In this document: positions 1 to 64,000 of the stretch, piece after piece
Layout: every line of letters begins with the position of its first letter
How positions within the stretch are numbered: position 1 is the stretch's first letter
DNA from: Pontibacter kalidii
GTDB taxonomy: Bacteria > Bacteroidota > Bacteroidia > Cytophagales > Hymenobacteraceae
Assembly (NCBI RefSeq): GCF_026278245.1
Contig: NZ_CP111079.1
Coordinates: 4,584,501-4,648,500, forward strand
Direction: 5' to 3'
Length of the DNA: 64,000 bases
Position numbers and translations under genes: made by a program
Notes under the pieces: model-generated
Database searches by the model: none
What the model saw: the letters and a program-made list of their open reading frames with translations, nothing else
Told to the model about the DNA's origin: nothing

Positions 1-1031
1 ACCTGCTTGGGGTTGTAGGTGGTGTAGCGCCCGGCAATCTCCCAGTCAGACGTAAACAGGTAGCCAGCCTGTATATTAAAGGCATCGCCTGTCACAAACG
101 TCTCATCTACCTGACCTTGCTCGGTTCTGGCCACTACAGGGCCGTCCGGTGTGGTGCGGCGGGCATATTCCGCCATCGTAGAGAAGCCCCTGTACTTGAA
201 CATGGCATCCACAAAAACGGTGTGCAGGTCGCGTTGGGCGCTCAGGAAATCACCGAGCTGCCCTTGGGAGCGGTTGGTGTTATCGTTATAGTTATAGGCG
301 GCGGCTATGGCCAGCTTGGGGCTCTCCTCGCGGTAAATGTCGCTGCCTATATACGCCCCGTCGCCCTCAAACGCACCCAGCGGAAACGCCTCTACTCTGC
401 CGGTGTAGCTGTAGCCGCCGGCATTGTTCACGGTAACGTTGCGGCCCTCGCCCATAGAGATGGCAACGCTCTCGCGAAACTCCATCTGGCCCACCTTGTG
501 GGAGTGGCGTAGCTGCAGGCCAGCATCACGGTCCAGGTTAAAGCGCGAGTTCAGCAGGCTTCGGTCCACAAACTGCATCTTTTGGGAGGATACAAGGCGC
601 TCGCGGTTGCCGGGCAACTTGGCTTGCCCCACCCACAGTTCCAGGTTTGGTGTCATATGCCACATGGCAACGGCGTCAAGTACGATGCTACTTGCGTTGT
701 CAAACATTTCCGGCTCATCGTTGCCGATGTCGTTGTTGCTCAGGCCGAGCTCAATCTTGTACTCCAGTTTTGGCGTGTAGGCAAAGCCATCAAACTTTAG
801 GCGGGCCCTGCGGATCAGGAAGCGGTCTTCCCAATCACCCGTCCCACCTGTAGTGGAGCCTTGGTAAAGCGTCTGGAAACGGGTGCCAAACTTGAGGCTG
901 AAGGAGGAATCGGCGGCTATGAACTGCAAGCCTTTGCCGAACTTGGAATCATTAATGCTCTGTGCCTGAGTTGTGCCTAAGCCGAGGCACCCCAAGGCCA
1001 CAATAAATGCGCTTGTTAACTTTTTGTACAC
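1..1031 (-). CDS. Phosphate-selective porin O/P family protein (partial, C-terminus off the left edge)
   Basis: About 343 codons read on the minus strand. The first ~22 residues form a signal peptide ending near TTQAQ. The mature part begins with FGKGLQFIAADSSFSLKFGTRFQ, then DRFLIRRARLKFDG, and later LWVGQAKLPGNRERL and QKMQFVDRSLLN. These blocks are typical of the Porin_O_P family, outer-membrane beta-barrels first known as phosphate- or polyphosphate-selective channels. The start is taken as GTG at 1031 because it directly precedes the signal peptide and I see no ATG in frame upstream. The 3' end lies outside the window. Substrate is unknown here; the family name does not prove phosphate specificity. 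Confidence 0.85.
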   Translation of the reverse strand, partial: MYKKLTSAFIVALGCLGLGTTQAQSINDSKFGKGLQFIAADSSFSLKFGTRFQTLYQGSTTGGTGDWEDRFLIRRARLKFDGFAYTPKLEYKIELGLSNNDIGNDEPEMFDNASSIVLDAVAMWHMTPNLELWVGQAKLPGNRERLVSSQKMQFVDRSLLNSRFNLDRDAGLQLRHSHKVGQMEFRESVAISMGEGRNVTVNNAGGYSYTGRVEAFPLGAFEGDGAYIGSDIYREESPKLAIAAAYNYNDNTNRSQGQLGDFLSAQRDLHTVFVDAMFKYRGFSTMAEYARRTTPDGPVVARTEQGQVDETFVTGDAFNIQAGYLFTSDWEIAGRYTTYNPKQ

Positions 1032-1614
1032 GATACTTTCAGTTGGGTGAGAAATAAAACCTATTCGTAGTACTGATTTACTCTTTCAGCATACTTGAAT
1101 ACCAAATATGCTGATGAATTCTAAAGAAAATCCGTAGCAGCAGCTGGTGCGCAAGCGGCGCTGGTAGTTAGTCAGGCTACCGGTCTTCCGCGCTGCGTTG
1201 GTCTTCGCCCTAGTCAGGAGCGACACCTACTACTGTTACGACGCTGCAAAATAAGTGTATTAATATTATTGCCGCTTTACCGCAATGTTATGCTAATGTT
1301 AAGCTTTATGCCAAGGAACTTTTTATCCCCCCTGAAAGTCTTTGATCCGCCTGGGCAGAGTGGTGCAAAGTATAAAAAGCATGCCCTCTGGCTTTGCGGC
1401 CAAGGGTTTGCCGCAGTTTGGTTAGTTTTCAGTTGAGAATGTAGGAAAGCTAGACCAACACGTGCATGTTGTCATTGGCCTCCGGCCTACTGTCGGTTTT
1501 CCTTTCAAGCACGCCGCTGCCCCACACCATGCTGCACATCGCCTTTCGCGCTCGGGGCAGGGTAGCTAGCCGTTCTCGGGGTACAAAGTAGCAGTCCAGC
1601 TCATACCTAGGCAC
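1032..1614. other. Long intergenic region, no gene seen
   Basis: About 580 bp between the porin start and the terminator of the beta-helix lipoprotein gene. No convincing reading frame, tRNA or structured RNA was recognised. One AGTATA word occurs near 1369. The part next to 1031 should hold the porin promoter, but I found no exact TAnnTTTG match. Confidence 0.5.
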
Positions 1615-1652
1615 AAAAAAAGGCTGTCACAAATATAAATTTGTGACAGCCT
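1615..1652 (-). terminator. Rho-independent terminator of the beta-helix lipoprotein gene
   Basis: A perfect 14-bp stem (1621-1634 with 1639-1652; arm AGGCTGTCACAAAT) has a 4-base loop and, read on the minus strand, is followed by a run of T residues. It lies 23 bp after the stop codon of the gene ending at 1675. Confidence 0.9.
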
Positions 1653-1674
1653 CCAGTACATTTTGGAATTTAAG

Positions 1675-2802
1675 TTAGAATTTGTAGCCAGTCCAGCCAA
1701 ACACTGAAGTATTGGCGCCTGTAGCAGCACTGTTCTTAGTGATATCAGCGTTGTCAGGATTTTTAACTTCCTGGCCTTTGATCACCACATCGGCAAAGTT
1801 ATAGTCGATAACAGTACCAGCATTTCCATTGCCCTTGCCGTCTGTCAGGTCGATCAAGTCTGTGGTGGAACCGCCTTTAACAAGGAGGTTGGAGATAGTA
1901 GCTTTAGCGCCTCTGCGCACTTTTACGGCATCTTGCATCTCGAAATCTGATTCATTCACAATAGTGATGTTCTTTAAAATGAAATCAGATTGGTTAACAT
2001 CGCCAGGGGTATTACCATCCAGGTTACCGTCAAGTTCAGCACCACGTGGGTCGCCTTCCGTACTTGTGTATCCGCTCTTCCAAACACCATAGGCGTTATC
2101 CAATGTGCCAGTCCAGCCCTGCGTTACATCAAACATGTCATCGTCAGAATCAACTACCAACAGGTTCTTTACATTTACTGAACCTCCAAACCATTCTACA
2201 GCGTCATCAGATCCGTAGGGGATGTAGATATTTTCGATTTTGGTGCCGCTTCCTACGCCATTCAGTGTCAAGCCATTGTGCTCGATGTCGGCTGAAGATT
2301 TTGCTCCGGTATACTCCAAAATGAGATACTCTAATACGCCTGAGTTGTCGCTATCATTGTCGCCGCCATAGATAACAGAGGGATTGATTTCTGTAGTGCC
2401 GGTGGTAACTTTGCCAGCTGGGCCGGAAAGTCTCGCTTTACCGTTAATAATCAAACCACCCCAGTCGCCTTGCTTAGGATTTGCCTCTGCAGAGGTTATT
2501 TTAACTGGCTTATCGGCTGTACCGTTAACAAAGATCTGGCCACCTTGCTCAACAAGAATGTACTTATTGAAACCCTTCTCAGCTTTAATAACTGTGCCCG
2601 CAGGAATGCGCAGTTTTCCGCCCTCCACTACAAGCAATGATCCTGTTAATTTGTATTCGATGTTTGGATCAAGTGTTACTTCAGTGGAAATATCACCGCT
2701 TAGTTCATTTTTTACATCAGGAGTTGGAGTTGACTCATCATCATCTTTGCATGAGAATAACCCGAACGGAATCAGTAGTAGGTAAAGGATTGTCTTTTTC
2801 AT
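1675..2802 (-). CDS. Secreted lipoprotein with right-handed beta-helix-like repeats
   Basis: 375 residues. The N-terminus MKKTILYLLLIPFGLFSCKDDD is a lipoprotein signal with the lipid-bearing Cys at 18, followed by acidic residues. From about residue 35 on there are repeated short strands such as EGGKLRIPAGTVIKAE, KPVKITSAE, DWGGLIINGKA and NGLTLNGVGSGTKIENIYI, typical of parallel beta-helix surface proteins. It follows the TonB-dependent receptor by 69 bp with no terminator between, so the two are probably co-transcribed and act together at the outer membrane. The ligand cannot be read from the sequence. Base composition is AT-richer than the genes at 6-27 kb. Confidence 0.8.
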   Translation of the reverse strand: MKKTILYLLLIPFGLFSCKDDDESTPTPDVKNELSGDISTEVTLDPNIEYKLTGSLLVVEGGKLRIPAGTVIKAEKGFNKYILVEQGGQIFVNGTADKPVKITSAEANPKQGDWGGLIINGKARLSGPAGKVTTGTTEINPSVIYGGDNDSDNSGVLEYLILEYTGAKSSADIEHNGLTLNGVGSGTKIENIYIPYGSDDAVEWFGGSVNVKNLLVVDSDDDMFDVTQGWTGTLDNAYGVWKSGYTSTEGDPRGAELDGNLDGNTPGDVNQSDFILKNITIVNESDFEMQDAVKVRRGAKATISNLLVKGGSTTDLIDLTDGKGNGNAGTVIDYNFADVVIKGQEVKNPDNADITKNSAATGANTSVFGWTGYKF

Positions 2803-2871
2803 TTTTTTGATTGTTTATACAATATTAGGAATGAGAAATCAACTGAATATGAATGGAATATTAACTAATTG

Positions 2872-5595: not shown

Positions 5596-5620
5596 TTTAT
5601 TTGTAGTCTTATTGCTGCGA

Positions 5621-5648
5621 CAAAAGTAGAAGGACTGTATTACCTCAA
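5621..5648 (-). promoter_or_regulatory. Bacteroidota-type promoter of the TonB-dependent receptor
   Basis: On the minus strand TTG (5646-5648) is followed after 17 bases by TACTTTTG (5621-5628), an exact match to the consensus TTG-N17-23-TAnnTTTG. The -7 element ends 25 bp before the start codon at 5595. Confidence 0.8.
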
Positions 5649-5838: not shown

Positions 5839-5846
5839 TAGCTTTG
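5839..5846 (+). promoter_or_regulatory. Predicted -7 element of a small plus-strand transcript
   Basis: TAGCTTTG is an exact match to the Bacteroidota TAnnTTTG -7 element. No TTG lies at the expected distance upstream. It is 27 bp before the small ORF at 5874 and is the only exact match close to it. Confidence 0.55.
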
Positions 5847-11315: not shown

Positions 11316-13646
11316 ATGTCCCTAGTCCGGAAAATCATACTTGCCCATCGCATCAAATGCCTGCCCTGCCTGCTGCTGGTGTGGCTGTGCTGGTGCAGTA
11401 CGGCCTTGGTAGCGCAGGCGCAAAGCCAGCTGCCGATAGGGGGCTGGCGGCTACACGTGCCCTACCACCAGGGCAAGGCCGTCGCCGTGGCCGGCGACAA
11501 GGTATACCTGGCCGCCGAGCGTGGCCTTTTCTTCTACGACACCGAGTTCAACACCACCGAAACCATCACGAAAGTAGATGGGCTGAGCGAGCAGCAGATC
11601 AATGACATTGCTTTTAGCGAGGGCGCCAATACACTTGTTATCGCCTACCACAACAGCAAAGTAGACCTGCTGCAAGGCAACGGCATTTACGCCATCAACG
11701 ACATCTTCCGGAAAAGCATCTCCGGGGAGAAGAAAATCAACCGCATTTATACTTATAACAAGCTGGCTTACCTGGCTACTACTTTCGGGGTGGTGGTGCT
11801 GGACCTGCAGAAGCGTGAGGTAAAAGATACCTACAGCAGCCTCGGCCCCAACGGCGAAAGTATAAATGCCACCGACGTAGCCATACTTGACAACAATATT
11901 TTACTGTCCACGAGCCTCGGTGTCCTTTCTGCGCCTCTCTCCGGTACTAACCTGCAGGATTTCAGGAATTGGAGCAACCAGAGCAGCGGTTTGCCTGAAC
12001 CTTCGGCTGTTACCAGTTTAGCTGCCTTTCAAGGGAAGTTGTTTGCGGGCACTGCTAGCGGCGTGTATACGTTGAGCGGCGAGAACTGGAGCGAAACCAC
12101 GCTGACCCCTGGGGCTGCGGTTAAAAGTCTAAATGCCACGGAGGCTCACCTAAGTATCGTTTCGTCAGGTGGAGTGCTGGTGCAGGAGGCCAGCGGCCGC
12201 ACTTATACTTTAATTCATACCTTGCTGTCGCAGCCGCAGGAGGCTATGGCCACCGCTGGCGGCGAAGTATGGCTAGCCGACAAAGCCAAAGGTTTGGTGA
12301 AGTTGAGCCTGAGCAATTCTGAAGCTGCGGCCTTTGCCCCCGGCGGCCCCTACGCCAGCGACAGCTTCCGGATCTATACGTACGGGGGCAAGATATACGT
12401 GCTGGGCGGCGGCTACACCGAAAGCTATGAGCCACAAAATAACCAGAGCGGCTTTTATACTTACGAAAAAGGCGAATGGCAAAACTATAACCGCGCCCTT
12501 TACCCGCAGCCTTCCTTTGTAGCGGGGCAGGACCTGGTCGGCGCTGTCTTTAACCCCGGCAACAACAAACTATACCTGGCCAGCTACGGCAGCGGGCTGA
12601 TAGCCTGGGAGGGGCCGGAGAAAGCCATACTCTATAACGAAGAAAACAGCCCGCTGCTGCGTACAGCGTCCACTTCTGAAGTACGCGTTACGGATGTGGC
12701 CCTGGATTACGAAGGCAACGTGTGGGTGGTGAACCCAAACAGGCAACCCGGAGCACCCGGCCTGCACAAGCTTACGCCGGATGGCAACTGGGAGTCTCAT
12801 CCGTTGAGCAATATTCCGGATGCCAGCAACCTGACTTTGCTGGTGATAGATGATTACGGTCAGAAATGGCTGTCTGTCGCCCGAAAGGGCAACACCCGCA
12901 GCGGACTAGTGGTGTACGATGAGCAGCAGGACCTGACACGAACCCTTGCCGTGGGCGAGGGCAACGGCGGCCTGCCAAGTGGTACCGTTTATAGTATGGC
13001 TAAAGACCTGAACGGCGATATTTGGGTAGGTACGGCCAATGGCGTGGGGATCTATTACAATACTGCGCTGGTTTTTGAGGCGGCCCGCTACGATGCGCGC
13101 ATTCCGATCATAAATGGCCGGCCTTTGCTGAACGGGCAGGTGGTGCGAAGTATAGCCGTGGACGGGGCCAACCGCAAGTGGATCGGCACGGATAACGGCC
13201 TCTGGCTTTTCGGCCCCGACGGCGATGAGCAGATCCATCATTTTACTACCCAAAACAGCCCGCTGCCTTCCGACAAAGTATACGCGGTAGGGGTGGAGCA
13301 TCAGTCGGGGGAGGTGTTTGTGGCCACTGATGCCGGCGTGGCCTCTTTCCGCTCCAATGCCACCATCACCGAGGGAAAACCTGAGTGCGCCATGGTGTTC
13401 CCAAACCCGGTGCGCCCGGAGTATACCGGTGAGGTAGGCATCTCGGGGTTGCCAAACAATGCCGATGTGCGTATTACAGATGTAGCGGGTACGTTGGTCT
13501 ATAAAGGCAAAGCCACGGGCGGCACCTTCGCCTGGAACGCCCGCGACTACAACGGCAACCGCGTAAGGGCCGGGGTGTACCTGGTGCTGGGTGCAAGCCC
13601 GGATGGCGCCCAAACCTGTATCAGTAAAATAGCCGTACTGGAGTAA
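11316..13646 (+). CDS. porZ: Type IX secretion system protein PorZ (beta-propeller)
   Basis: 776 residues from the preferred ATG at 11316; an ATG at 11241 would add 25 residues ahead of the signal peptide (LLLVWLCWCSTALVAQAQ). The mature start QLPIGGWRLHVPYHQGKAVA and VYLAAERGLFFYD, repeated as INDIAF, VWLADKAKGLVKL, IWVGTANGVGIYY and KWIGTDNGLWLF, are the blades of the two-component-regulator-type propeller found in PorZ. The last ~80 residues form a type A sorting domain (VFPNPVRPEYTGEVGISGL to the end). PorZ sits on the cell surface with PorU, PorV and PorQ in the attachment complex that links T9SS cargo to anionic lipopolysaccharide. recO follows without a gap. Confidence 0.85.
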   Translation: MSLVRKIILAHRIKCLPCLLLVWLCWCSTALVAQAQSQLPIGGWRLHVPYHQGKAVAVAGDKVYLAAERGLFFYDTEFNTTETITKVDGLSEQQINDIAFSEGANTLVIAYHNSKVDLLQGNGIYAINDIFRKSISGEKKINRIYTYNKLAYLATTFGVVVLDLQKREVKDTYSSLGPNGESINATDVAILDNNILLSTSLGVLSAPLSGTNLQDFRNWSNQSSGLPEPSAVTSLAAFQGKLFAGTASGVYTLSGENWSETTLTPGAAVKSLNATEAHLSIVSSGGVLVQEASGRTYTLIHTLLSQPQEAMATAGGEVWLADKAKGLVKLSLSNSEAAAFAPGGPYASDSFRIYTYGGKIYVLGGGYTESYEPQNNQSGFYTYEKGEWQNYNRALYPQPSFVAGQDLVGAVFNPGNNKLYLASYGSGLIAWEGPEKAILYNEENSPLLRTASTSEVRVTDVALDYEGNVWVVNPNRQPGAPGLHKLTPDGNWESHPLSNIPDASNLTLLVIDDYGQKWLSVARKGNTRSGLVVYDEQQDLTRTLAVGEGNGGLPSGTVYSMAKDLNGDIWVGTANGVGIYYNTALVFEAARYDARIPIINGRPLLNGQVVRSIAVDGANRKWIGTDNGLWLFGPDGDEQIHHFTTQNSPLPSDKVYAVGVEHQSGEVFVATDAGVASFRSNATITEGKPECAMVFPNPVRPEYTGEVGISGLPNNADVRITDVAGTLVYKGKATGGTFAWNARDYNGNRVRAGVYLVLGASPDGAQTCISKIAVLE

Positions 13647-14360
13647 ATGTTAGTCAAAACAAGGGGGATCGTACTCAGCAACATCAAGTATAGGGAGACG
13701 TCCATCATCACCAAAATCTATACCGAGGCGCTGGGGGTGCAGTCGTACATCGTGAACGGCGTGCGCAAGAAGGGCAACGGCTCGCGCGTGGCGCTGTTCC
13801 AGCCGTTCACACTGCTGGAGATGGTGGTCTACACCTCGCACCGGGGCGGCCTCTCGCGCATCTCCGAGTTCAAAACCGACTACTCCCTTGTTTCCATCCC
13901 GTTCGATATCCGCAAGAGCAGCATCGTTTTGTTTCTGTCGGAAGTAGTGTCGCGCACGGTGAAGGAGGAGGAGGAGAACCTGCCGCTGTTCCATTTCCTG
14001 TACAGCGCCATCACCACCTTTGATGAGATGGACAGTGGCTTCGAGAACTTCCATCTGGTGTTCCTGCTGCAGCTGAGCTCCCACCTAGGCTTTGGCCCAA
14101 GCTCGGGGACCGAGGTGGTGGAGCAGGTGGCTTTCTCACCCAATGCGCAGTCGGCTACCTCAGCGCCTACCGTACTGGCCATGCAGGTGCACGAGAAGTA
14201 CTTCGATGAACTGCTGCAGGAGCCGGATTATGCCTCCATTCCCAACGGCCGGGTGCGCCGCGAGCTGCTCGACATCCTTATTCGCTACTACCAGCTGCAC
14301 GTAGACAGGCTGGGCGACATCAAATCACTGGCCATACTTTCGGAGGTGCTGGCGGAGTAG
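13647..14360 (+). CDS. recO: DNA repair protein RecO
   Basis: 237 residues beginning MLVKTRGIVLSNIKYRETSIITKIYTE, the OB-fold start typical of RecO, with the conserved block GVRKKGNGSRVALFQPFTLLEMV, followed by the helical C-terminal domain. RecO works with RecR to load RecA on SSB-coated single-stranded DNA in gap repair. Its ATG directly follows the TAA of porZ, so the two are translationally coupled. No zinc-finger Cys cluster is visible in the C-terminal half, as in many Bacteroidota RecO proteins. Confidence 0.92.
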   Translation: MLVKTRGIVLSNIKYRETSIITKIYTEALGVQSYIVNGVRKKGNGSRVALFQPFTLLEMVVYTSHRGGLSRISEFKTDYSLVSIPFDIRKSSIVLFLSEVVSRTVKEEEENLPLFHFLYSAITTFDEMDSGFENFHLVFLLQLSSHLGFGPSSGTEVVEQVAFSPNAQSATSAPTVLAMQVHEKYFDELLQEPDYASIPNGRVRRELLDILIRYYQLHVDRLGDIKSLAILSEVLAE

Positions 14361-14731
14361 GGGGATTGCGTAGCATGACACACGTATCATGTATCACGAC
14401 AAAGGCACTATCAGCCTATTTAATGAAGGATGCTTTTCATTCTACCCACAAAGACTCTAAACCATCTGCCATACTGTGAAGGAACCTGGTAGAAAAAGCG
14501 GCCCCCTACCCCCGGGAGGTTAAGCCTCTGCGACTTGCTACCAAGATCCTTTCAGGATGACAAAATAAAAGTATGAAGCGCGTTATCCCTGGCAGGAGAA
14601 TCAAGTTATACTTATCGGAATCTCCTTCTCTGGAGTGGGTTCGTTAACTACCCCTTAGGTTAAAGTATAAAAGTATGGAAAGCGGAGGAGTGAAAGTATA
14701 GAAGCATACTCTTTGAAGAATGCGGAAGTAT
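14361..14731. other. Intergenic region rich in AGTATA words, no gene seen
   Basis: About 370 bp between recO and a bidirectional terminator. At least four AGTATA/TATACT words occur between 14600 and 14731 along with AAGTATG variants. No coding frame is convincing. Confidence 0.5.
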
Positions 14732-14770
14732 AAAAAAAAGCCGCCGGGAAGTATAACCCCGGCGGCTTTT
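14732..14770. terminator. Bidirectional terminator with AAGTATAA in the loop
   Basis: Stem AAAAGCCGCCGGG (14736-14748) with CCCGGCGGCTTTT (14758-14770); the loop contains AAGTATAA. An A run on the left serves the minus-strand FKBP gene; four T residues on the right could serve plus-strand transcripts. Confidence 0.85.
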
Positions 14771-17978: not shown

Positions 17979-18005
17979 GCCCGCAAAGTATACTTATTGA
18001 TTGAG

Positions 18006-18212: not shown

Positions 18213-18649
18213 AATTGCTCGTGAACGATTATCATTCCCTACCCCTCCCGGAACAAGTCCAGGATCCGAGACTTCAAAGGGGGACTTTAGTTTACGTTGC
18301 AAAAGCAGGAGCTATCAAAATGATACCCAGTCTTTCCGTTGAGCGCCTTGTAGATTTGCGGTTTCGCTTTAGCGAAATTGCGGAGACCGCAGGTCAAGCA
18401 AAGGAAATGTACACAGCGCGATGCGGAAAGACGAGCCCTCCCGGGCTAGAGGGAGCCAAAGTATGAAGTGCAATGGTAGGCTTGTGGGAACTACAGGATC
18501 AGCGGCAGCTAGAAAGGATAGCTTGTTTCAAGTGCCGTGAAGCAGCGGCTAGCAAGTATGGCCAAAGTATAAAAAGGCACCGGCTGCAAGCCCGCGCCAA
18601 CGATTGCATAAAGTATAGCTGGCAAGTATAAAAGTATAACCCAAGTATA
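18213..18649. other. Non-coding region with repeat debris and an AGTATA cluster
   Basis: A short open frame at 18215-18466 is judged spurious: it begins in the C-rich repeat and overlaps small palindromes (TTCGCTTTAGCGAA near 18364-18377). Five AGTATA words lie within about 100 bp between 18555 and 18655. Confidence 0.5.
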
Positions 18650-26601: not shown

Positions 26602-26692
26602 CGGCAAAGAAAGTATAACGGCGCCGCCGCGTTTGTGAGGTATGGCCGAAAGCCGTACCTTCATCTGTCCAAAGTATAAAGTATACCCTTTG

Positions 26693-46529: not shown

Positions 46530-48203
46530 ATGAAAAACAGAACCATAGCACTTTTAGGCGCTGCCTGCTTTGTGTCGGGTGCGTTTGTGGCCAGGGTGGC
46601 AGATGATAAACTGTCGGTACGTATACTGCAGGATGCCCAGAAAGTGCTCGGGCTGCATTTTACGGCGGCCCAGCTCGACTCCACTGTCTCGGAGCTGGAG
46701 GAGCTCCGGGAGAGTTACGAGGTGATACGCCAGCAGAACCTGCCCAACAGTGTGCCGCCGGCGCTCCTATTCAACCCGATCCCGGTGGGCTATACTTTCC
46801 CGACAGGAAAATCAGCTTTTGAGGCCGAGCGGCCGCAGAACGTGAAGTTGCCCAAAAAGCGCGAGGAGCTGGCCTTTTATACCATCCCGCAGCTGGCGGA
46901 ACTGGTGCGCACGCAGCAGATCACCTCCGAGGAGCTCACCAAATTCTTCCTGGACCGCCTGAAGAAGTATGGCCCGACGCTGGAGGCGGTAACGACCTTA
47001 ACCGAGGAACTGGCGCTGCAGCAGGCTCGCCAGGCAGACCGGGAAATAAAAGCCGGAAAGTATAAAGGCATGCTGCACGGCATTCCGTTCGGGGTGAAGG
47101 ACCTGCTCTCCACGCGCAAGTATAAAACCACCTGGGGCGCCACGCCTTACAAAGACCAGGTGATAGACGAGGATGCCACCGTGGTGCAGCGCCTGCAGGA
47201 TGCCGGGGGTGTGCTGGTAGCAAAGCTCACCTTAGGCGCCCTGGCCATGGGTGATGTGTGGTACGGCGGCAAGACCCGCTCGCCATGGGATATCAGCAAA
47301 GGCTCCAGTGGCTCCTCGGCAGGTTCGGCGGCGGTCGTGGCGGCGGGCCTGCTTCCTTACGCCATCGGCACGGAAACACTGGGCTCTATCGTGTCGCCAT
47401 CCACGGCCACGGGCACCACCGGCCTGCGCCCCACCTATGGTCGCGTGAGCCGTTACGGGGCCATGGCCCTGAGCTGGTCGATGGATAAGATCGGCCCGAT
47501 AGCCCGTTCCGCTGAGGATTGCGCCATCGTGTTCAATGCCATTTACGGGCCCGACGGGAAGGATCAGTCGGTGTATGATGTACCGTTTAACTACAACCAA
47601 AGTATAAATCCGAAGAAGCTGCGCGTGGGTTTCCTGAAGGATGACTTTGCGAAGGAATATGGCTTTAAGCAAAACGATCAGGCGGCGCTGGATGCGCTGC
47701 AGAAGGCAGGTGTGGAGTTGGTGCCCCTCTCGCTGCCAGACCTGCCGGCAAGCGACCTGCTCCTGACCATATCCGTAGAGGGAGCGGCCGCTTTCGATGA
47801 GCTGACCCGCAGCGGGCGCGATAGCCTGCTGGTGGCGCAGCACAAGAACGCCTGGCCCAACATCTTCCGCACGGCCCGCTTTATACCTGCCGTGGAGTAC
47901 CTGCAGGCGCAGCGCGTGCGCACCCTGCTGGTGCAGCAGATGGAGGAGAAGCTAAAGGAGGTGGACGTGTACATCAGTCCCACGTTTGCCAGTAGCAACC
48001 TGGTGGTAACCAACCTTACGGGCCACCCGTGCGTGGTGGTGCCCACCGGCTTCCAGAAAAATGGCATGCCGACTACCATCACTTTTATGGGGAAACTGTT
48101 CGGGGAGGCGGAGCTGCTGCGCTTTGCCCAGTTCTACCAAAGTATAACGCCGCACGAGGAGCAGCACCCAAGTATGAATTTCAGCAAAAAGAAGAAATCC
48201 TGA
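46530..48203 (+). CDS. Amidase-signature-family enzyme, exported
   Basis: 557 residues with an N-terminal hydrophobic segment (about 5-24) that may be a signal or anchor, then ~100 residues ahead of the amidase fold. The catalytic Lys is in GIPFGVKDLLS (about 190) and the Ser-rich block is SKGSSGSSAGSAAVVAAGLLPYAIGTETLGSIVSP (about 255-290), holding the cis-Ser and nucleophile Ser. It is related to GatA and fatty-acid/peptide amidases but, being exported and alone, is not the tRNA amidotransferase. It hydrolyses an unknown amide in the envelope. The following spacer is full of AGTATA words. Confidence 0.9.
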   Translation: MKNRTIALLGAACFVSGAFVARVADDKLSVRILQDAQKVLGLHFTAAQLDSTVSELEELRESYEVIRQQNLPNSVPPALLFNPIPVGYTFPTGKSAFEAERPQNVKLPKKREELAFYTIPQLAELVRTQQITSEELTKFFLDRLKKYGPTLEAVTTLTEELALQQARQADREIKAGKYKGMLHGIPFGVKDLLSTRKYKTTWGATPYKDQVIDEDATVVQRLQDAGGVLVAKLTLGALAMGDVWYGGKTRSPWDISKGSSGSSAGSAAVVAAGLLPYAIGTETLGSIVSPSTATGTTGLRPTYGRVSRYGAMALSWSMDKIGPIARSAEDCAIVFNAIYGPDGKDQSVYDVPFNYNQSINPKKLRVGFLKDDFAKEYGFKQNDQAALDALQKAGVELVPLSLPDLPASDLLLTISVEGAAAFDELTRSGRDSLLVAQHKNAWPNIFRTARFIPAVEYLQAQRVRTLLVQQMEEKLKEVDVYISPTFASSNLVVTNLTGHPCVVVPTGFQKNGMPTTITFMGKLFGEAELLRFAQFYQSITPHEEQHPSMNFSKKKKS

Positions 48204-48648
48204 AGTATAAAAGTATACATCCGGCAGCCGCAAAGTATAGGGAGAGGAAAATTTATACTTGCTCATGCACCTGTATGCAGAATTTGAATGCCTCTGCTGC
48301 TGGTTTATACTTTGATTCTCCTGCGGTTTATACTTTGCGTTTGGCCGGCTAGGATTTTCTACAAAGTATAGGAGGGGCCGCTATACTTGCTGGTGAAAAC
48401 ACGCAAGCAAGGGCATCTGGTTTAGCTGCAACAAGCACGGAACAACCTCAAAGTATAAAATCTGCTTCTCAGGTTAAAGTATAAATACCCTGCTGCTGCA
48501 CTGTCGCTATACTTTGCGCGACCGGCGAAGTATGAAATAACCGTTCTGAGGCACAACTTCCTGCGGGCGGCTTTTTGTTAACTTCGTGTTTATACTTTAT
48601 TTTGAAGATCAAACCTTAACTAAACTACCTAAACCTAATAAACCAACC
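48204..48648. repeat. Cluster of AGTATA/TATACT words in a gene-free spacer
   Basis: Twelve copies of AGTATA or its complement lie between 48201 and 48600, mostly within AAAGTATA, TTTATACTT or TATACTTTG, in both orientations and at irregular spacing. There is no coding frame of note. It lies between the amidase and the S9 peptidase genes. Confidence 0.85.
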
Positions 48649-51054
48649 ATGCAACTGAAACGAAAAGTTGTGGCGTTTGCGGTATTGCTGCTGCTGGGCA
48701 GCGCCGATGTGCACGCGCAGAACGACAAAACAGAACTGAGCGTGGAGAAGATCATGCGCGACCCCAAATGGATCGGCACCTCTCCGAGCAACGTGTTCTG
48801 GTCTGAAGACGGAAAGAAGATCTACTTTAACTGGAACCCGGAAGGCAACCGCCAGGACTCGCTCTACAGTGTGAGCGCCGACGGTAGAAACCTGCAGAAG
48901 GTGAGCGCGCAGGAGCGCCGCAACCTGCCGGCCCAGCGTGGCGTGTACAACCGTGCCCAAACCAAGAAGGTGTACGAGAAGAACGGCGACATCTTTTTGT
49001 ATGATATAAAATCAGGAAAAGCGCAGCAGGTAACCAACACCGTGGAGCGCGAGAGTAGCCCAGCCTTTAGCCACAACGAGCAAAAGGTGGTGTATACCAA
49101 AGACAGCAACCTGTTTGCCTGGAACATCAGTAATGGGCAAACAGTACAACTCACAGATTTTAAAAAAGGCCGTAAGCCCGCAGAGGAAGGCAAGAACCCG
49201 CAGCGCGACTGGCTAAAGGAGCAGCAGCTGACGCTTCTACAGATCGTGCGCGAGCGCAAGGAAGACAAAGAAGCCGCCGAGAAGCAGCAGAAACTGGATA
49301 ACCCCACCCGTCCGAAGGAAATCTACGTGGAGGAGAAGATCGTGAGCAGCGTGACGCTGGGGCCGAACGAGCGCTTCATTACCTACCAACTCATCTCCCG
49401 TCCTAAAAACGCACAGGTGGCCATTGTGCCGGATTTTGTGACAGAATCAGGTTATACGGAGGATATAAAGACCAGAACCAAGGTAGGTGACGCGCAGAGC
49501 AGCTACGAATTCTTTGTGTACGACACGCAGCGCGACACCGCCTATGCCGTGCTGATGAACGATGTGGAGGGCATCTACGACCAGCCTGCTTACCTGCTGC
49601 AGCAGGAGGCAAAGGCCAGTGCCTCGACCAATGCGGCCGAGAGCAAGACTAAAAAGCCAGAGCCGCGCGCTGCCACCATCTATGGCACCTACTGGTCCGA
49701 CAATGGCAAGCATGCCGTGGTAGTAGCCCGTTCTGCCGATAACAAGGACCGCTGGATCATGAAGCTGGACCCGGCCACGTCCAAGCTCACCGTGCTGGAC
49801 CGCCAGCGCGACGAGGCCTGGATAAACGGCCCAGGCATTAGCTATGGCCCTGGCGCCATCGGCTGGATGCCGGATAACGAGCGTGTGTGGTTCCACTCCG
49901 AGGAAAGCGGCTACTCGCACCTGTATACCGTGAACGTGAACAGTGGCCAGAAGAAAGCCCTCACCAGTGGCAAGTTTGAGGTGTCGGATGCGCGTATATC
50001 CGATGATAAAAAGCACTTTTACTTTACGGCCAACAAAGTACACCCGGGCGAGAAGCATTTTTACCGCATGCCGGTAAACGGCGGTGAAATGGTGCAGCTG
50101 ACAAGTATGGCCGGTGCTCACGAGGTGGAGCTGTCGCCAGACGAGAAGAAGCTGGCCATCCGCTATTCTTACAGCAACAAGCCGTGGGAACTGTACGTGA
50201 TGGACAACAAGAAGAACGCGAAGCCAAAGCAAGTTACCAACTCCCTGACCGACGAGTTCAAGGCCTATGACTGGCGCGAGCCGGAGGTGATCACCTTTAA
50301 AGCAGAAGACGGTGCCGACGTATACGCCCGCCTGTACCGCCCGGAGAACCCACAGCAAAACGGACCGGCCGTGATATTTGTGCATGGTGCCGGTTACCTG
50401 CAGAACGCGCACAAGTGGTGGAGCTCCTACTTCCGCGAGTACATGTTCCACAACTTCCTGGTTGACCAGGGCTATACCGTGCTGGACATCGATTACCGCG
50501 GCAGCGCTGGCTACGGCCGCGACGTGCGCACGGGCATCTACCAGTTTATGGGTGGTAAAGACCTGAGTGACCATGTGGACGGTGCCAAACACCTGGTGGA
50601 GAAGTATAATGTGGACCCAAAGCGCATCGGTATTTACGGCGGCTCCTATGGCGGTTTCATTACGCTGATGGCCATGTTCACAGAGCCTGACGTGTTCGCG
50701 GCCGGTGCCGCCCTGCGCTCGGTGACCGACTGGGCACACTACAACCACGGCTATACTTCCAACATTCTTAACACACCATACACGGACAGTACAGCCTATG
50801 CCAAGAGTTCGCCCATCTACTACGCAGAGGGGCTGCAAGGCGCTTTATTGATCTGCCATGGCATGGTGGACACGAACGTGCATTTCCAGGACGTGGTGCG
50901 CCTGACGCAACGCCTGATAGAGCTGGGCAAGGAGAACTGGGAGCTGGCGGTATACCCTGTGGAGGATCATGGCTTCACGGAACCCGCCAGCTGGACCGAC
51001 GAGTACAAGCGTATCTTCAAGCTGTTTGAGGAAAATCTGAAAGAGAAGAAGTAA
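48649..51054 (+). CDS. S9-family prolyl oligopeptidase-like peptidase, exported
   Basis: 801 residues from ATG 48649 (MQLKRKVVAFAVLLLLGSADVHAQ, signal peptide); the frame extends upstream to 48586. The N-terminal ~550 residues form a beta-propeller of repeated strands (SPAFSHNEQKVVYTKDSNLF, VELSPDEKKLAIRYS). The C-terminal alpha/beta hydrolase has nucleophile Ser 666 in GGSYGGF, Asp 741 in GMVDTNV and His 774 in VEDHGF. It is close to the DPP4/acylaminoacyl-peptidase branch, which clips dipeptides or short peptides outside the cytoplasm. Nutrient peptide use is likely. Confidence 0.93.
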   Translation: MQLKRKVVAFAVLLLLGSADVHAQNDKTELSVEKIMRDPKWIGTSPSNVFWSEDGKKIYFNWNPEGNRQDSLYSVSADGRNLQKVSAQERRNLPAQRGVYNRAQTKKVYEKNGDIFLYDIKSGKAQQVTNTVERESSPAFSHNEQKVVYTKDSNLFAWNISNGQTVQLTDFKKGRKPAEEGKNPQRDWLKEQQLTLLQIVRERKEDKEAAEKQQKLDNPTRPKEIYVEEKIVSSVTLGPNERFITYQLISRPKNAQVAIVPDFVTESGYTEDIKTRTKVGDAQSSYEFFVYDTQRDTAYAVLMNDVEGIYDQPAYLLQQEAKASASTNAAESKTKKPEPRAATIYGTYWSDNGKHAVVVARSADNKDRWIMKLDPATSKLTVLDRQRDEAWINGPGISYGPGAIGWMPDNERVWFHSEESGYSHLYTVNVNSGQKKALTSGKFEVSDARISDDKKHFYFTANKVHPGEKHFYRMPVNGGEMVQLTSMAGAHEVELSPDEKKLAIRYSYSNKPWELYVMDNKKNAKPKQVTNSLTDEFKAYDWREPEVITFKAEDGADVYARLYRPENPQQNGPAVIFVHGAGYLQNAHKWWSSYFREYMFHNFLVDQGYTVLDIDYRGSAGYGRDVRTGIYQFMGGKDLSDHVDGAKHLVEKYNVDPKRIGIYGGSYGGFITLMAMFTEPDVFAAGAALRSVTDWAHYNHGYTSNILNTPYTDSTAYAKSSPIYYAEGLQGALLICHGMVDTNVHFQDVVRLTQRLIELGKENWELAVYPVEDHGFTEPASWTDEYKRIFKLFEENLKEKK

Positions 51055-58884: not shown

Positions 58885-59078
58885 AGAGGATTATTTCAAG
58901 TGTTTTATTTAGAGTAAATGAACGGGGCGCCATTTTAAAAGGTTGTGCCCCGGCTCCTGCTGCGCCACGGTTTGGTGGTGACGCCAAAGTATACTTTAGC
59001 CCGCAACCTTTTGCCTGTAAAACGTTACAAGCAACTGTGCAGGCCTGATATTCAGTTTCAAGTATGGCAGATTTGTCT

Positions 59079-59086
59079 TAGCTTTG
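59079..59086 (+). promoter_or_regulatory. Predicted -7 element of metK
   Basis: TAGCTTTG matches TAnnTTTG exactly, 57 bp before the start at 59144. A short hairpin (GCTGCC with GGCAGC, about 59093-59108) and a TATACTTTG word lie in the leader. I see no SAM riboswitch pattern. Confidence 0.5.
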
Positions 59087-59143
59087 TACCCGCTGCCAAA
59101 GGGGGCAGCCGGTTTATACTTTGTACCTAAACCCAAAGGAAAA

Positions 59144-60448: not shown

Positions 60449-60475
60449 CCAAGTCGTTTAGACCAGCTCTTACAT

Positions 60476-60520
60476 AAAAACAGCGGGGCCTGCTATACTT
60501 TAGCAGGCCCCGCTGTTTTT
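60476..60520. terminator. Bidirectional terminator with perfect 20-bp stem and TACTT loop
   Basis: Arms 60476-60495 and 60501-60520 are exact complements; loop TACTT, so TATACTT lies across the loop. A second TATACTT follows right after the stem. It serves metK and the hpf operon. Confidence 0.93.
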
Positions 60521-60537
60521 ATACTTTAGACGTTAGG

Positions 60538-60837
60538 CTAGTGAGCCATTTGCTTTTCCTTAAAGCGCTTTAGCTGGCGTCGCATGGCCTCTACGGCAGC
60601 ATCGGCGGCAGCTTCAAAGGACGGGGCATCCTCCTGGGAGAACAGCGTAGAGCCTGGAACAAACAGCTTGATCTCTACGGTCTTGTTGGCTATGCCTTCT
60701 TTGTTATTATGTTTAAGAAACACTTCGCCTTCCACAATGCGATCATAAAAAGTTTCGAGCTTGTCTACTTTCTGTTGAACGAAATCAGCAAGTTGCTGGT
60801 CTGCCTCGAAGTGGATGGAATGCATCTGTAGTTTCAT
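60538..60837 (-). CDS. hpf: Ribosome hibernation-promoting factor (short HPF/RaiA type)
   Basis: 99 residues. MKLQMHSIHFEADQQLADFVQQKVDKLETFYDRI, then GEVFLKHNN and KTVEIKLFVPGSTLFSQEDAPSFEAAADAAVEAMRRQLKRFKEK. This is the S30AE fold that binds the 30S decoding site and silences or dimerises ribosomes in stationary phase. It is the last gene of rpsU-xerC-hpf, 27 bp after xerC. Confidence 0.93.
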   Translation of the reverse strand: MKLQMHSIHFEADQQLADFVQQKVDKLETFYDRIVEGEVFLKHNNKEGIANKTVEIKLFVPGSTLFSQEDAPSFEAAADAAVEAMRRQLKRFKEKQMAH

Positions 60838-60864
60838 ATGCTTTACATTTAAAAGTTAAACTGA

Positions 60865-61743
60865 TTATGCTTTTGGGTGAGCCTTCTCAAAAATGGATTT
60901 GAGTTGCTCGATGGAATTGTGTGTGTAAACCTGAGTGGCCGCCAGGCTGGCATGCCCCAGTAGATCTTTGATCGCGTTAAGATCGGCTCCCTTGTTGAGT
61001 AAGTGAGTGGCGAAGGAGTGTCGCAGAACGTGTGGGCTGTTGTGTTCAGAGGTGGTGATCAAGCTGATATATTTTTTTACGACACGATAAACGAACTTCG
61101 GGTAAAGGGGCCTTGCTTTATTAGTAACGAGCAATTTTACCGAATTGTTATCACCAAAAAAATGACTTTTCTCAGTTTGGTAGGCATCCAGCGCCAGCAG
61201 CAGCGAGTCGTTCAGGGGCACAATTCGCTCCTTGTTGCCCTTGCCCAGAACGCGTACTGTTTTGGCGCCTAGGGTGATGTCAGCAGGCTCAATATTGATC
61301 AGCTCGGCAAGGCGTATGCCGGTGCCATAGAGGAACTCCAGGATGAGCCGGTCGCGCTGACCCTCAAAGGTATCCTCAAAGGTAAAGGTGTCGAGCAGGT
61401 TGTTGAATGGCTCCTCCTGCACAAAGGCGGGAAGCTTTTTGCTGGCCTTTGGCGCTTTGATGCGCAGCATGGGGTTGGCTTTGATGCGCTCCTGTGCCAG
61501 TAAAAACCTGTAGTAGGAGCGGAGGCAGGCAATCTTCCGGTTGATGGAGCGCGGCTTGATGTTGTTCTGCACCAGCGTCAGTATCCAGGAACGGATAATG
61601 GTGTGGTCGGCCTCGGCGGCATCGGTGATCTGGTATACTTCACGCAGGTAACCGGCGAATTGGCCCAGATCGGTGTGATAAGAGGTAAGGGTGTGCGGGC
61701 TGTACCGCTTTTCGTACTGCAGGTACTTGAAAAATAAATCCAT
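60865..61743 (-). CDS. xerC: Tyrosine recombinase XerC
   Basis: 292 residues. N-terminal SAM-like domain (MDLFFKYLQYEKRYSPHTL) and catalytic domain with R144 (GTGIRLAEL), K168 (GKGNKER), H238 and R241 (PHVLRHSFATHLL), H264 (LLGHASL) and nucleophile Y273 (QVYTH). XerC/XerD-type enzymes resolve chromosome dimers at dif; no dif-like site was identified here. It lies between rpsU and hpf, the usual order in Bacteroidota, which supports xerC over an integrase. Its start codon is buried in a 20-bp hairpin. Confidence 0.95.
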   Translation of the reverse strand: MDLFFKYLQYEKRYSPHTLTSYHTDLGQFAGYLREVYQITDAAEADHTIIRSWILTLVQNNIKPRSINRKIACLRSYYRFLLAQERIKANPMLRIKAPKASKKLPAFVQEEPFNNLLDTFTFEDTFEGQRDRLILEFLYGTGIRLAELINIEPADITLGAKTVRVLGKGNKERIVPLNDSLLLALDAYQTEKSHFFGDNNSVKLLVTNKARPLYPKFVYRVVKKYISLITTSEHNSPHVLRHSFATHLLNKGADLNAIKDLLGHASLAATQVYTHNSIEQLKSIFEKAHPKA

Positions 61744-61788
61744 ACATTCGTATACCCTGCTGGGTGAGGCAGGGTATACGAATGTATG
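61741..61788 (-). promoter_or_regulatory. Perfect 20-bp hairpin covering the xerC start codon
   Basis: Left arm CATACATTCGTATACCCTGC (61741-61760) and right arm 61769-61788 are exact complements with an 8-base loop. The xerC ATG is the first three bases of the left arm. On the minus strand the structure is followed by GATTTATTTTT, so it might also weaken transcription after rpsU. Confidence 0.85.
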
Positions 61789-61815
61789 GAAAAATAAAGT
61801 ATCTAGCTAGAGATA

Positions 61816-62010
61816 CTAGTAGTTTTGGTCTACAAACATTTGCTGCTTGTACACGGCTCTCTCCTTTTGCTTTCTCTTGGCAACAGAAGGCTTCTCGAAG
61901 TACGCTCTTGAGCGCAGTTCTTTCAAAACACCAGTTCTCTCAAATTTCTTCTTGAATCTCTTCAGAGCACGGTCTACAGACTCGTTATCTTTTACGTTTA
62001 CAATAATCAT
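61816..62010 (-). CDS. rpsU: 30S ribosomal protein S21
   Basis: 64 residues: [55 protein letters not shown], the full S21 pattern. It joins the small subunit near the platform and helps start translation. It heads the rpsU-xerC-hpf group, with a good promoter upstream. Confidence 0.97.
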
Positions 62011-62043
62011 ATTTTTCCTCGCTTCTCTTTGGATTTAGGGTTG

Positions 62044-62075
62044 CAAATTTAAACAATCTTATACTTAATAATCAA
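62044..62075 (-). promoter_or_regulatory. Bacteroidota-type promoter of the rpsU-xerC-hpf operon
   Basis: TTG (62073-62075), 21 bases, TAAATTTG (62044-62051) on the minus strand: exact consensus and spacing, 33 bp before the rpsU start. Confidence 0.75.
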
Positions 62076-62160
62076 CTTGTTTGCTAAATATTTATCAAAC
62101 AGCCTTGTTTTAGCCAGGAAAGCAGGGGAAAAGCCCTTAATTAGCCTCTCCCACGGCTTT

Positions 62161-63300
62161 TTACTTTAACATGGCCCTGGATATAACAAGCTTCTGTATC
62201 TCGCTGGTTCCTTCACCTATGGTGCAAAGCTTTGCGTCGCGGTAGTACTTCTCAGCCGGGTAGTCTTTGGTAAAGCCATAGCCGCCAAAGATCTGCACCG
62301 CCTCGTTGGCTACCCTTACCGATACTTCGGAGGCATACAGCTTGGCCATGGCCGATTCCTTGTTCACGTTCAGCCCACGGTTTTTCATGTCGGCGGCCTG
62401 GTAGGTGAGCAAAGAGGCCGCCTCTACCTCGGTGGCCATGTCGGCCAGCTTAAAGGCAATGCCCTGGAAGCTGGAGATAGGCTTGTTGAACTGGTGGCGC
62501 TCTTTCGAGTAAGCCAGCGCGGCATCCAATGCGCCCTGCGCAATGCCCAGCGAAAGTGCAGCAATCGAGATACGGCCGCCATCGAGCACCTTCATCGCCT
62601 GAACGAAGCCATCGCCCACCTCACCCAGGATCTGGTCTTTGTGCACGCGGCAGTCTTGGAAGATAAGCTCCGTGGTCTCAGAGGCACGCATGCCCAGTTT
62701 GTCTTCCTTGCGGCCGGCGCTAAAGCCCTCGGTGCCTTTCTCGATCACGAAAGCGGTCATGCCATGGGAGTCGCCTACCTCGCCAGTGCGCACGATCACC
62801 ACCGCCACATTGCCCGACTTGCCGTGCGTGATAAAGTTCTTGGCGCCGTTGATCACCCAGTAGTCGCCGTCCTGCACCGCCACGGTGCGCATGTTGCCCG
62901 CGTCTGAGCCCGTGTTTGGCTCCGTCAGGCCCCAGGCCCCGATCCACTCGGCGGTGGCTAGCTTAGGCAGGTACTTTCTTTTCTGCTCCTCGTTGCCGAA
63001 AGCCAGGATGTGGCCGGTGCAAAGCGAGTTATGCGCGGCCATAGAAAGGCCGATGGAGCCATCGATCTTGGAAAGTTCCGCGATGGCCGTAACGTACTCC
63101 AGGTAACCAAAGCCTGAGCCGCCATACTCTGCTGGCACGAGCACCCCCATCAGCCCCAGCTCTCCGAGTTTTTTAAATACCTCTACCGGAAACTCCTGAG
63201 ACTCGTCCCACTCCCGCATTTTAGGCTTGATGTGCTTGGCGCCAAAGTCACGGACCATGTCCGCAATCATGCGCTGGTTTTCTGTTGTTTTTAATTCCAT
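62161..63300 (-). CDS. Acyl-CoA dehydrogenase
   Basis: 379 residues, the usual length. N-terminal helical domain, the middle FAD domain with WGLTEPNTGSDAGNMRT and VINGAKNFITHGKSGNVAVV, the signature GMRASETTELIFQDCRV, and the C-terminal domain with IFGGYGFTKDYPAEKYYRDAKLCTIGEGTSEIQ, where the Glu after YPA aligns with the catalytic base of short-chain enzymes. It oxidises an acyl-CoA to the 2,3-enoyl form in fatty-acid or branched-amino-acid breakdown. Chain-length preference is not clear. Monocistronic. Confidence 0.95.
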   Translation of the reverse strand: MELKTTENQRMIADMVRDFGAKHIKPKMREWDESQEFPVEVFKKLGELGLMGVLVPAEYGGSGFGYLEYVTAIAELSKIDGSIGLSMAAHNSLCTGHILAFGNEEQKRKYLPKLATAEWIGAWGLTEPNTGSDAGNMRTVAVQDGDYWVINGAKNFITHGKSGNVAVVIVRTGEVGDSHGMTAFVIEKGTEGFSAGRKEDKLGMRASETTELIFQDCRVHKDQILGEVGDGFVQAMKVLDGGRISIAALSLGIAQGALDAALAYSKERHQFNKPISSFQGIAFKLADMATEVEAASLLTYQAADMKNRGLNVNKESAMAKLYASEVSVRVANEAVQIFGGYGFTKDYPAEKYYRDAKLCTIGEGTSEIQKLVISRAMLK

Positions 63301-63369
63301 GTATAGTTTTGGGTTGTTAATTAAGGTGATGCGTAGCTTGTATAACGGTTTTGCCCTATCCGTTGTTTA

Positions 63370-63397
63370 CAAAGCTATATAAATAAGGGCGGAGCAA
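63370..63397 (-). promoter_or_regulatory. Bacteroidota-type promoter of the acyl-CoA dehydrogenase gene
   Basis: TTG (63395-63397), 17 bases, TAGCTTTG (63370-63377) on the minus strand; a second TTG gives spacing 20. It lies 70 bp before the start codon. Confidence 0.75.
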
Positions 63398-63546
63398 CAA
63401 TCATCTATATAGATTTAATCGTATGTAATAGAGCCGACTGCATGGCGGTAGCTTTATTTTGACCGTGATTTTAATTTCTGTTATTTTGAGGATTGTTTTG
63501 CTGTGCTGCCCTTTGCAGCAGGGCCACAGGAATCGGTTTGGGTAAG

Positions 63547-64000
63547 ATGATACAGTTTTTGAAGAACCTGTTTGGAGGGAATGAGCCTGCGCTGGAGGTC
63601 TCGCTTGGCGAGCTTGGCGCGGATATGCATTCGCACATTCTTCCGGGCATAGACGACGGCTCCGAAAGCCTGGCGCAGTCGCTGGAACTCGTGCAGGGGA
63701 TGAAGGAGCTGGGCTACCGCAAACTGATCATGACGCCGCACATCATGAGCGACTTCTACAAAAACACGCCGGAGATTATTCGCGAGAAGCTGCAGCTGCT
63801 GCGGCAGGCGGTAAAAGAGGCGGGTATAGAGATAGAGCTGGACTGCGCGGCGGAGTATTACCTGGACGAGGGCCTGCTCGATAAGCTCGACAACGATGAG
63901 GAGCTGCTGACCTTCGGCAAGAACTATCTCTTGTTCGAGACATCGTTCCTGAATGAGCCCCTGAACCTGCGGGAGACGATCTTTAAGATGCGCTCCAAGG
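63547..64000 (+). CDS. CpsB/CapC-family tyrosine-protein phosphatase (partial, runs off the right edge)
   Basis: 151 codons visible: MIQFLKNLFGGNEPALEVSL, then GADMHSHILPGIDDGSESLAQSLELVQGMKELGYRKLIMTPHIMSD. H-S-H, P-G-I-D-D-G-S and T-P-H are the metal-binding marks of the PHP-fold phosphatases that control capsule and exopolysaccharide export by removing phosphate from the Wzc-type kinase. The C-terminus, and any polysaccharide genes, lie beyond the window. Confidence 0.92.
   Translation, partial: MIQFLKNLFGGNEPALEVSLGELGADMHSHILPGIDDGSESLAQSLELVQGMKELGYRKLIMTPHIMSDFYKNTPEIIREKLQLLRQAVKEAGIEIELDCAAEYYLDEGLLDKLDNDEELLTFGKNYLLFETSFLNEPLNLRETIFKMRSK

Follow-up and report, generated by a model that had tools for sequence, protein, structure and literature searches.

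A short word iterated in several dialects across Pontibacter genomes: a candidate DNA uptake sequence

Background

Why should a bacterial chromosome repeat the same short word again and again, on both strands and in genes as well as in spacers? The question is raised by a stretch of 64,000 nucleotides (hereafter the window), positions 4,584,501 to 4,648,500 on contig 1 of the 5.05-Mb genome of Pontibacter kalidii. An earlier note on this DNA had remarked on the frequency of the hexamer AGTATA/TATACT and proposed that selection or biased repair acts on the word as DNA, in the manner of the highly iterated palindrome HIP1 or of uptake sequences, or else that it has a transcription-related role. 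The RecO protein encoded in the window shares 97% identity with its counterpart in Pontibacter flavimaris; the 31 matches listed after that one come from Pontibacter or Botryobacter.

Nowhere is the distinction that bacteria make between their own and foreign DNA clearer than in uptake sequences, whose best-known reader is a pilin. The Pontibacter word appears to behave like a DNA uptake sequence: its size, numbers, strand symmetry and tolerance by genes agree with this, as do its rarity in foreign DNA and the existence of dialects, of genomes with two of them and of species without a word. On balance we favour the view that it marks self DNA for an uptake machine that works without a pilus, the uptake itself being what we infer from this pattern. 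If this is true, a genus that lacks genes for a pilus motor would have evolved the trait anew, using different machinery, and the word would provide a handle on the DNA receptor of Bacteroidota.

Results and discussion

Abundance and anatomy of the word

Measured on both strands against an order-2 Markov model, the excess of AGTATA/TATACT described in the earlier note is borne out, with 142 copies in the window where 34.4 are expected. The most over-represented hexamer is AAGTAT/ATACTT; AAGTATA is found 109 times (9.5 expected), and the longer form AAAGTATAAA 18 times (0.26 expected). The excess extends to the whole genome, which carries 1,372 copies of AAAGTATAAA (701 + 671), far above the 14 (10 + 4) of the reversed word. 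This reversed word served as control in genome-wide counts, and anagrams did so in the gene/spacer and conservation tests.

To describe the word we used a chromosome sample of 804 kb, made up of 37 stretches of 20 kb and the window (38 stretches in all). When all AGTAT copies in this sample are aligned, the preceding base (-1) is A in 69%, the next base A in 57% or G in 27%, and the one after it A in 44% or G in 26%. There is almost no signal beyond about 10 bases and no flanking repeat; an origin from a repeat or mobile element was rejected because the motif stops there. The 8-mer AAGTATAA is enriched 32.6-fold. Only three of its single-base variants, all at the last two positions, are strongly enriched as well (AAGTATAG 15.2-fold, AAGTATGA 9.2-fold and AAGTATAC 7.6-fold), while changes within the first six bases give 1.0- to 4.5-fold enrichment only. 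Since strong enrichment is confined to variants at the last two positions, the recognised unit should be approximately AAGTAT-R-V. The word can thus be written AAAGTATAA, a rigid AAGTAT core followed by A/G and then by A/G/C; AAGTATGG is another enriched variant. Inverted pairs of words in +- order, when close, are mostly 15 bases apart or less, and such pairs would fit the palindrome AAGTATACTT, so that terminator hairpins are not needed to account for them.

Placement of the word in genes, spacers and along the chromosome

Genes in the 804 kb were predicted with a simple purpose-written gene finder. Of 1,378 copies of AAGTATA, 687 are genic (1.09 per kb), 674 intergenic (3.84 per kb) and 17 lie across gene edges, whereas 40 anagrams average 49.5 coding and 35.6 intergenic copies. 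Within genes, each of the six frame/strand states holds 72 to 155 copies, and neither codons nor protein motifs can therefore explain the word. The suggestion that the ATA codon occurs mostly as part of the word did not hold: 364 of 2,462 ATA codons (15%) lie within it, and outside words ATA still makes up 18% of isoleucine codons. The least probable of the explanations considered here, and one that the counts contradict, is that composition, codon usage or mutation bias alone produced the excess. The word is certainly AT-rich and denser in DNA under low constraint, but the anagrams and the order-2 expectations are far lower than the counts observed, all six frames are used, and other Pontibacter genomes have near-control counts of the same word.

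A role as a transcription signal, whether promoter -7 box or terminator, could draw on the higher density of the word in spacers than in genes, on its maximum in convergent spacers (6.13 per kb, against 4.13 in codirectional and 3.78 in divergent ones) and on a certain preference for the gene sense in codirectional spacers (147 against 113). The divergent spacers, which hold promoters, are nevertheless the poorest, half of the words are genic, and the near-even orientation counts (57/56 in convergent, 147/113 in codirectional and 41/53 in divergent spacers, gene sense first for the codirectional ones) indicate no strong orientation. The likeness to a -7 box noted earlier also fails on inspection: TATACTTTG does not contain TAnnTTTG, the register being one base off. 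With neither a match to this box of Bacteroidota promoters nor a concentration upstream of genes, a promoter role is unlikely, and we consider a transcription signal of either kind very improbable.

Word density is 1.2 to 3.05 per kb in 34 of the 38 chromosome stretches. Some genes were annotated in each of the four poor stretches. The lowest density, 0.35 per kb, belongs to a prophage whose annotated products include an integrase-like protein and a minor tail protein, and the stretch of rpoB-rpoC-fusA-ribosomal protein genes has 0.40 per kb. The other two have 0.60 per kb each; one encodes a TonB-dependent receptor along with a glycoside hydrolase, the other a type I methylase along with a secreted repeat protein. 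A second contig of the genome (C2) has 0.27 words per kb, its 20 copies being close to the 14.0 expected. The densities of the prophage, of C2 and of the rpoBC/ribosomal stretch, all from one genome, indicate that words are few in foreign DNA and in the most constrained genes. As to the nature of C2 (G000, 73,841 bases, L198-L201), it is plasmid-like and carries a resistance-nodulation-division (RND) metal efflux gene, and one 20-kb piece of it matches plasmids of P. actiniarum and P. akesuensis over 18% and 9% of its length, at 84% identity.

The scarcity of the word in prophage and plasmid-like DNA, along with the strong specificity of the dialects described below, would also fit a self-marker for some other process (a defence system that leaves DNA with the word untouched, for example) or a site bound by a protein. 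Few as their words are, both the prophage and the plasmid-like contig are maintained in the genome, so the word is not needed for the survival of DNA in the cell, and we give this explanation only a small chance.

Sites such as Chi and the FtsK-orienting polar sequences (KOPS) are clearly strand-biased. A recombination or chromosome-organisation signal of this type, or a nucleoid protein site, would agree with the spread of the word over the whole chromosome and with its near-background level on C2, and a small leading-strand excess does exist, 738 of 1,378 words (53.6%) lying on the strand whose GC skew is positive. This is far from the strong orientation with replication seen in Chi or KOPS, the Pontibacter words being near strand-symmetric, and no trend in density along the chromosome is apparent by eye. 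To our knowledge, neither high enrichment (32.6-fold for the 8-mer) nor the replacement of one dialect by another within a genus is usual for such sites. An explanation of this kind is improbable, if marginally less so than the other self-marker just discussed.

Dialects in Pontibacter

We counted AAAGTATAAA in 50 Pontibacter genomes and in 100 from other genera of the family, these 150 being drawn from a larger group. In this sample, which allows the comparison with related genera that the earlier note had in mind, the word is found in Pontibacter only: the other genera have at most 108 copies (60 for the control in the same genome) and Pontibacter genomes 28 to 2,253. The low counts in part of Pontibacter are explained by the use of other words in other species. 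Besides D1 (AAGTATAA/AAAGTATAAA), we distinguish the dialects D2 (AACTATAG), D3 (AGGTATAG) and D4 (ATATATA-type words). Whole-genome counts in each of the 50 Pontibacter genomes give 6,288 to 8,208 copies of AACTATAG in five genomes, 2,617, 2,002 and 907 in three more and 476 in G131, and 2,823 to 5,222 copies of AGGTATAG in twelve genomes, with no more than 833 in the others; reversed-word controls for these two dialects have 65 to 264 copies. Both are close to strand-symmetric (3772/3717 and 4048/4160 for AACTATAG in two genomes, 2562/2566 for AGGTATAG). The assignment of G002 to D4 rests on 40 kb of that genome.

With thresholds that we set ourselves, the 50 genomes sort into 19 with D1 only (380 to 2,253 copies of the 10-mer), four with D1 and D2 (G018, G033, G043 and G058), four with D2, twelve with D3, one with D4 and ten with no word or a trace (G013, G028, G075, G097, G111, G115, G117, G127, G129 and G131, the last with traces of D1 and D2). 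Forty of the 50 genomes are thus word-bearing, four of them with two dialects. TATA is common to all dialects, and it is the bases before and just after it that vary. The cores of D2 and D4 are palindromic (CTATAG and TATATA) and those of D1 (AAGTATAA) and D3 (AGGTATAG) are not; the words are AT-rich or half AT, none being GC-rich. Four dialects, mixed genomes and word-less species within a single genus amount to a natural experiment on the origin, switching and decay of such words, and the dialects predict barriers to gene exchange between species.

Two further observations concern single genomes. Pontibacter sp. E15-1 (G117; L018, L136) has a faint excess of CGGTATA/GGGTATA in addition to 751 copies of AGGTATAG, a signal that may represent a weak or decaying fifth dialect. 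On contig C1 of G073, at about 1,944,098-1,946,633, AGGTATAG recurs every 66 bases or so over at least 2.5 kb, perhaps as part of the unit of a clustered regularly interspaced short palindromic repeat (CRISPR) array or of another tandem repeat.

The dialects bear directly on the possibility that the word is HIP1-like, that is, marked by an orphan DNA methyltransferase and created and maintained by a linked repair bias, with dialects following changes of methyltransferase. In the part of the cyanobacterial literature drawn on here (PMC4390886), highly iterated palindromes (HIPs) number about 1000 to 2000 per Mb, are replaced by alternates in some lineages, are low in some relatives and track methyltransferases. 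Pontibacter resembles this picture in having a very frequent 8-base word and palindromic D2 and D4 cores, and the genome of the window has methyltransferases of both families that were searched, PF01555 (N6_N4_Mtase) and PF02086 (MethyltransfD12), plus a type I one. HIPs are however palindromic, mostly GC-rich and tied to methyltransferases in the same source, unlike D1 and D3, which are not palindromic, and unlike any Pontibacter dialect as regards GC content. Moreover, ten of the 40 word-bearing genomes, such as G085 with its 7,058 D2 words, match neither PF01555 nor PF02086 (the genus-wide search did not take in PF02384, PF07669 and PF00145). These two families were for that reason rejected as a universal requirement. 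In the window's genome the PF01555 and PF02086 genes are situated on the margin of the word-poor stretch 2,429,001-2,449,000 and about 20 kb beyond it. We regard a HIP1-like origin as unlikely, although less so than the other alternatives, and of the two models named in the earlier note the uptake sequence is the better fit.

Phylogeny, conservation and in-place change of word sites

A tree based on six proteins was built for the window's genome, 32 named relatives and two outgroups, leaving out 17 of the 50 genomes, G002 (D4) included. The five D2-dominated species form a clade, as do the four D3 species (support 1.000 for each), and D1 is spread across several lineages. P. diazotrophicus, sp. 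E15-1 and P. ummariensis form a clade without the D1 word (support 0.942), which is the sister of the D1 clade that contains the window's genome (node support 0.993). Some deeper nodes have low support. Among the species in the tree, dialects with a common core therefore track phylogeny, P. vulgaris excepted.

Word sites are kept about twice as well as control words. In all twelve same-dialect species pairs compared, orthologous sites retain the word more often than control anagrams (41-76% against 21-46%; Fisher p <0.005 in eleven pairs and 0.095 in one). Six pairs with a word-poor species show no such excess (0-27% against 10-19%; no p below 0.05).

Sites also change from one dialect to another. 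At D1 sites compared with D3 species, exactly the D3 word is present in 66 of 388 cases and D1 in 16, and 43 of 1,556 controls have undergone the same A-to-G change; at D1 sites compared with D2 species, 20 of 338 are D2 and 35 still D1, against one of 275 controls. These figures are descriptive, being drawn from one region of about 20 kb and from 20 (D3) and 15 (D2) species pairs, which have loci in common and so cannot count as independent. They show that sites are rewritten from word to word more often than control words change, which is not what passive mutation bias does. Should this region be representative, the number of rewritten sites would run into the thousands. The use of six gene frames, the near strand symmetry, the excess conservation, the dialects and the scarcity in foreign DNA give good support to the earlier proposal of selection or drive on the word as such.

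Comparison with known uptake sequences

As in the DNA uptake sequence (DUS) of Neisseriaceae and the uptake signal sequence (USS) of Pasteurellaceae, the Pontibacter word is short and present in hundreds to thousands of copies. In the window's genome it occupies both strands, genes and spacers, without a fixed frame, and in that one genome foreign DNA and genes under strong constraint hold few copies. DUS, too, is known to be rare in foreign DNA and to be tolerated by genes. USS is a longer word with AT-rich flanks, unlike the Pontibacter motif, which ends after some 10 bases. USS (on which see PMC7811141) is non-palindromic, has many copies and is linked to the uptake of self DNA, and Pontibacter is like it in the first two respects.

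The likeness to DUS is closer. The portion of Frye et al. 2013 (PMC3630211) drawn on here describes a word of about 10 bases in thousands of copies, dialects that share a core, word-less relatives, and a genome, that of Simonsiella muelleri, with two dialects at once, all of which have counterparts in Pontibacter. The DUS core is CTG, where Pontibacter has TATA, and the reader of DUS is ComP, a minor pilin of the type IV pilus, whereas no full-length pilus ATPase was found in Pontibacter.

A precedent for uptake without pili exists in the same phylum. Natural transformation without pili is established in Riemerella, where a transposon screen, as given in excerpts of PMC8459023, identified as essential ComEC, DprA, ComF, RecA, a helix-hairpin-helix (HhH) protein, one protein each with DUF1343 and DUF5689, and a predicted outer-membrane protein with a carboxypeptidase-regulatory domain. 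In R. columbina, own DNA competes better than foreign DNA, and a k-mer count in Riemerella returned A-rich words only (Table 3 of PMC7965970, likewise used in part). Pontibacter shares with Riemerella the phylum, ComEC, the HhH protein and an apparent lack of a pilus; the self-DNA preference is a feature of R. columbina. The two differ in that Pontibacter has iterated dialect words and, in the searches described below, no general counterpart of the essential DUF5689 protein. Preferential uptake, a receptor and pilus-independence as in Riemerella are what we would infer for Pontibacter.

Uptake machinery

The core genes of natural transformation that were tested are present: ComEC in 50 of 50 Pontibacter genomes, and an HhH, ComEA-like protein of 304-346 residues, resembling the one essential in Riemerella, whole in 49 and in pieces in G089. 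A putative surface or periplasmic DNA-binding receptor of this machinery would read the tag with a sequence preference, so that tag-rich DNA of the same species would be preferentially taken up and recombined. Alleles with a better tag would then spread, and the word would build up wherever the protein tolerates it (molecular drive). A shift in the preference of the receptor would lead to conversion of old words in place and to replacement of one dialect by another, and loss of the preference to decay of the words. The complete scenario, in which Pontibacter has an uptake-sequence system with a non-pilin receptor belonging to a pilus-less Bacteroidota machine, the word has changed at least three times in the genus (four words), many sites have been rewritten in place and some genomes are caught between two dialects, is put forward tentatively, its chances being close to even.

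Several points weigh against the word being a self-tag for uptake. ComEC and the HhH protein are also found in the ten word-less genomes and do not, as a result, explain the presence or absence of the word. Conversely, comEC is abnormal in three word-bearing genomes, without a clean correlation: in G046 (D3, 5,041 words), alignment with the ComEC of G095 reveals two stops, frame changes and about 165 unmatched residues; in G089 (480 D1 words), both comEC and the HhH gene have stops and frame changes; and in G121, which has the most D2 words (8,208), the comEC frame has 561 residues against about 700 in others. Full-length PilB/PilT-type ATPases were absent from all 50 genomes in a search with PF00437 (pilins themselves were not searched), and the pilin route looks unavailable. 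The short DUF5689 protein is present in 12 of 50 genomes and was not found in that of the window by either the DUF5689 or the profile search described below. To these may be added the small leading-strand excess of the word, P. vulgaris (G043), which with D1 and 907 D2 words falls outside the D2 clade, so that D2 is not confined to one clade, and the fact that no uptake experiment on Pontibacter was found among the open-access papers searched. Nor did these papers yield a report on this word in Pontibacter or on over-represented uptake sequences in Bacteroidetes.

Recent loss could account for the abnormal comEC genes. A control genome, G038, also has one stop in the aligned comEC segment, and single stops are consequently weak evidence. 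The abnormal comEC and HhH loci themselves (L268-L270 in G089 and G046, L069/L132 in G121) are either competence-gene losses or assembly errors. The hits to PF00437, weak in each of the 50 genomes, cover 38-66 of 370 positions, the best with an E-value of 5.5e-6 and three genomes passing the cut-off; no type IV pilus with a word-reading minor pilin, as known from DUS, is thereby indicated.

DUF5689 proteins were matched in 22 of the 50 genomes and fall into two size groups. Ten have about 1,100-1,300 residues, the annotated one being an extracellular nuclease with lamin-tail and endonuclease domains, and twelve are lipoprotein-like, with 413-450 residues. A profile made from five of the short proteins matched 20 of 50 genomes, at full length in the same twelve only. 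Of the two loci examined with Pfam, L118 has a TonB receptor beside the short protein and L111 a SusD-like protein. Neither size group tracks the word, and DUF5689 was rejected as its receptor.

Gene neighbourhoods were compared around comEC in 12 genomes and around the HhH gene in 18, by eye for genes other than c6. This gene (~341 residues) lies beside comEC in seven of seven word-less or D4 stretches and in none of five D1-D3 stretches. It was rejected as a word-linked gene after 30 short comEC loci placed it beside comEC in six D1 or D1+D2 genomes and not in the word-less G097.

Word sites in the window and minor observations

The 109 copies of AAGTATA in the window (1.70 per kb by word count) extend from 1368 to 62066, 65 of them on the plus strand and 44 on the minus strand. 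The examples singled out earlier are in place: two plus-strand words within porZ (a name taken from the earlier note), at 11858..11864 in AAAGTATAAA context and at 13148..13154 in the form AAGTATAG, and the variant AAAGTATGG on the minus strand at 14334..14339, within recO (identified by TIGR00613). The word list further gives five words in the spacer after recO (14607..14755), the palindromic double word AAGTATACTT at 17986..17995, a plus-strand cluster of five words in 85 bases (18565..18649) and a tandem pair on the plus strand with a spacing of 7 bases (26672..26685), close direct pairs of this sort being found repeatedly in the genome. Its densest cluster, twelve words of both orientations in 395 bases, is at 48203..48597, the edges of a spacer included; this spacer separates an amidase-like gene (46530-48203) from the open reading frame that follows (48586-51054).

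No word comparable to that of Pontibacter was found in other genera, as judged from one 20-kb stretch of each of 19 genomes and from further loci. Two weak leads emerged. In G001, which belongs to a different genus of the family, 20 kb (L232) contain 18 copies of AACGCTA where 2.1 are expected; it may be another iterated word, and is not among the top words of the single congener compared. In a Cytophagales metagenome-assembled genome (L052), ATCAATA has 53 copies where 10.6 are expected; it is present in 19 of the 500-base bins and could be a repeat or another word.

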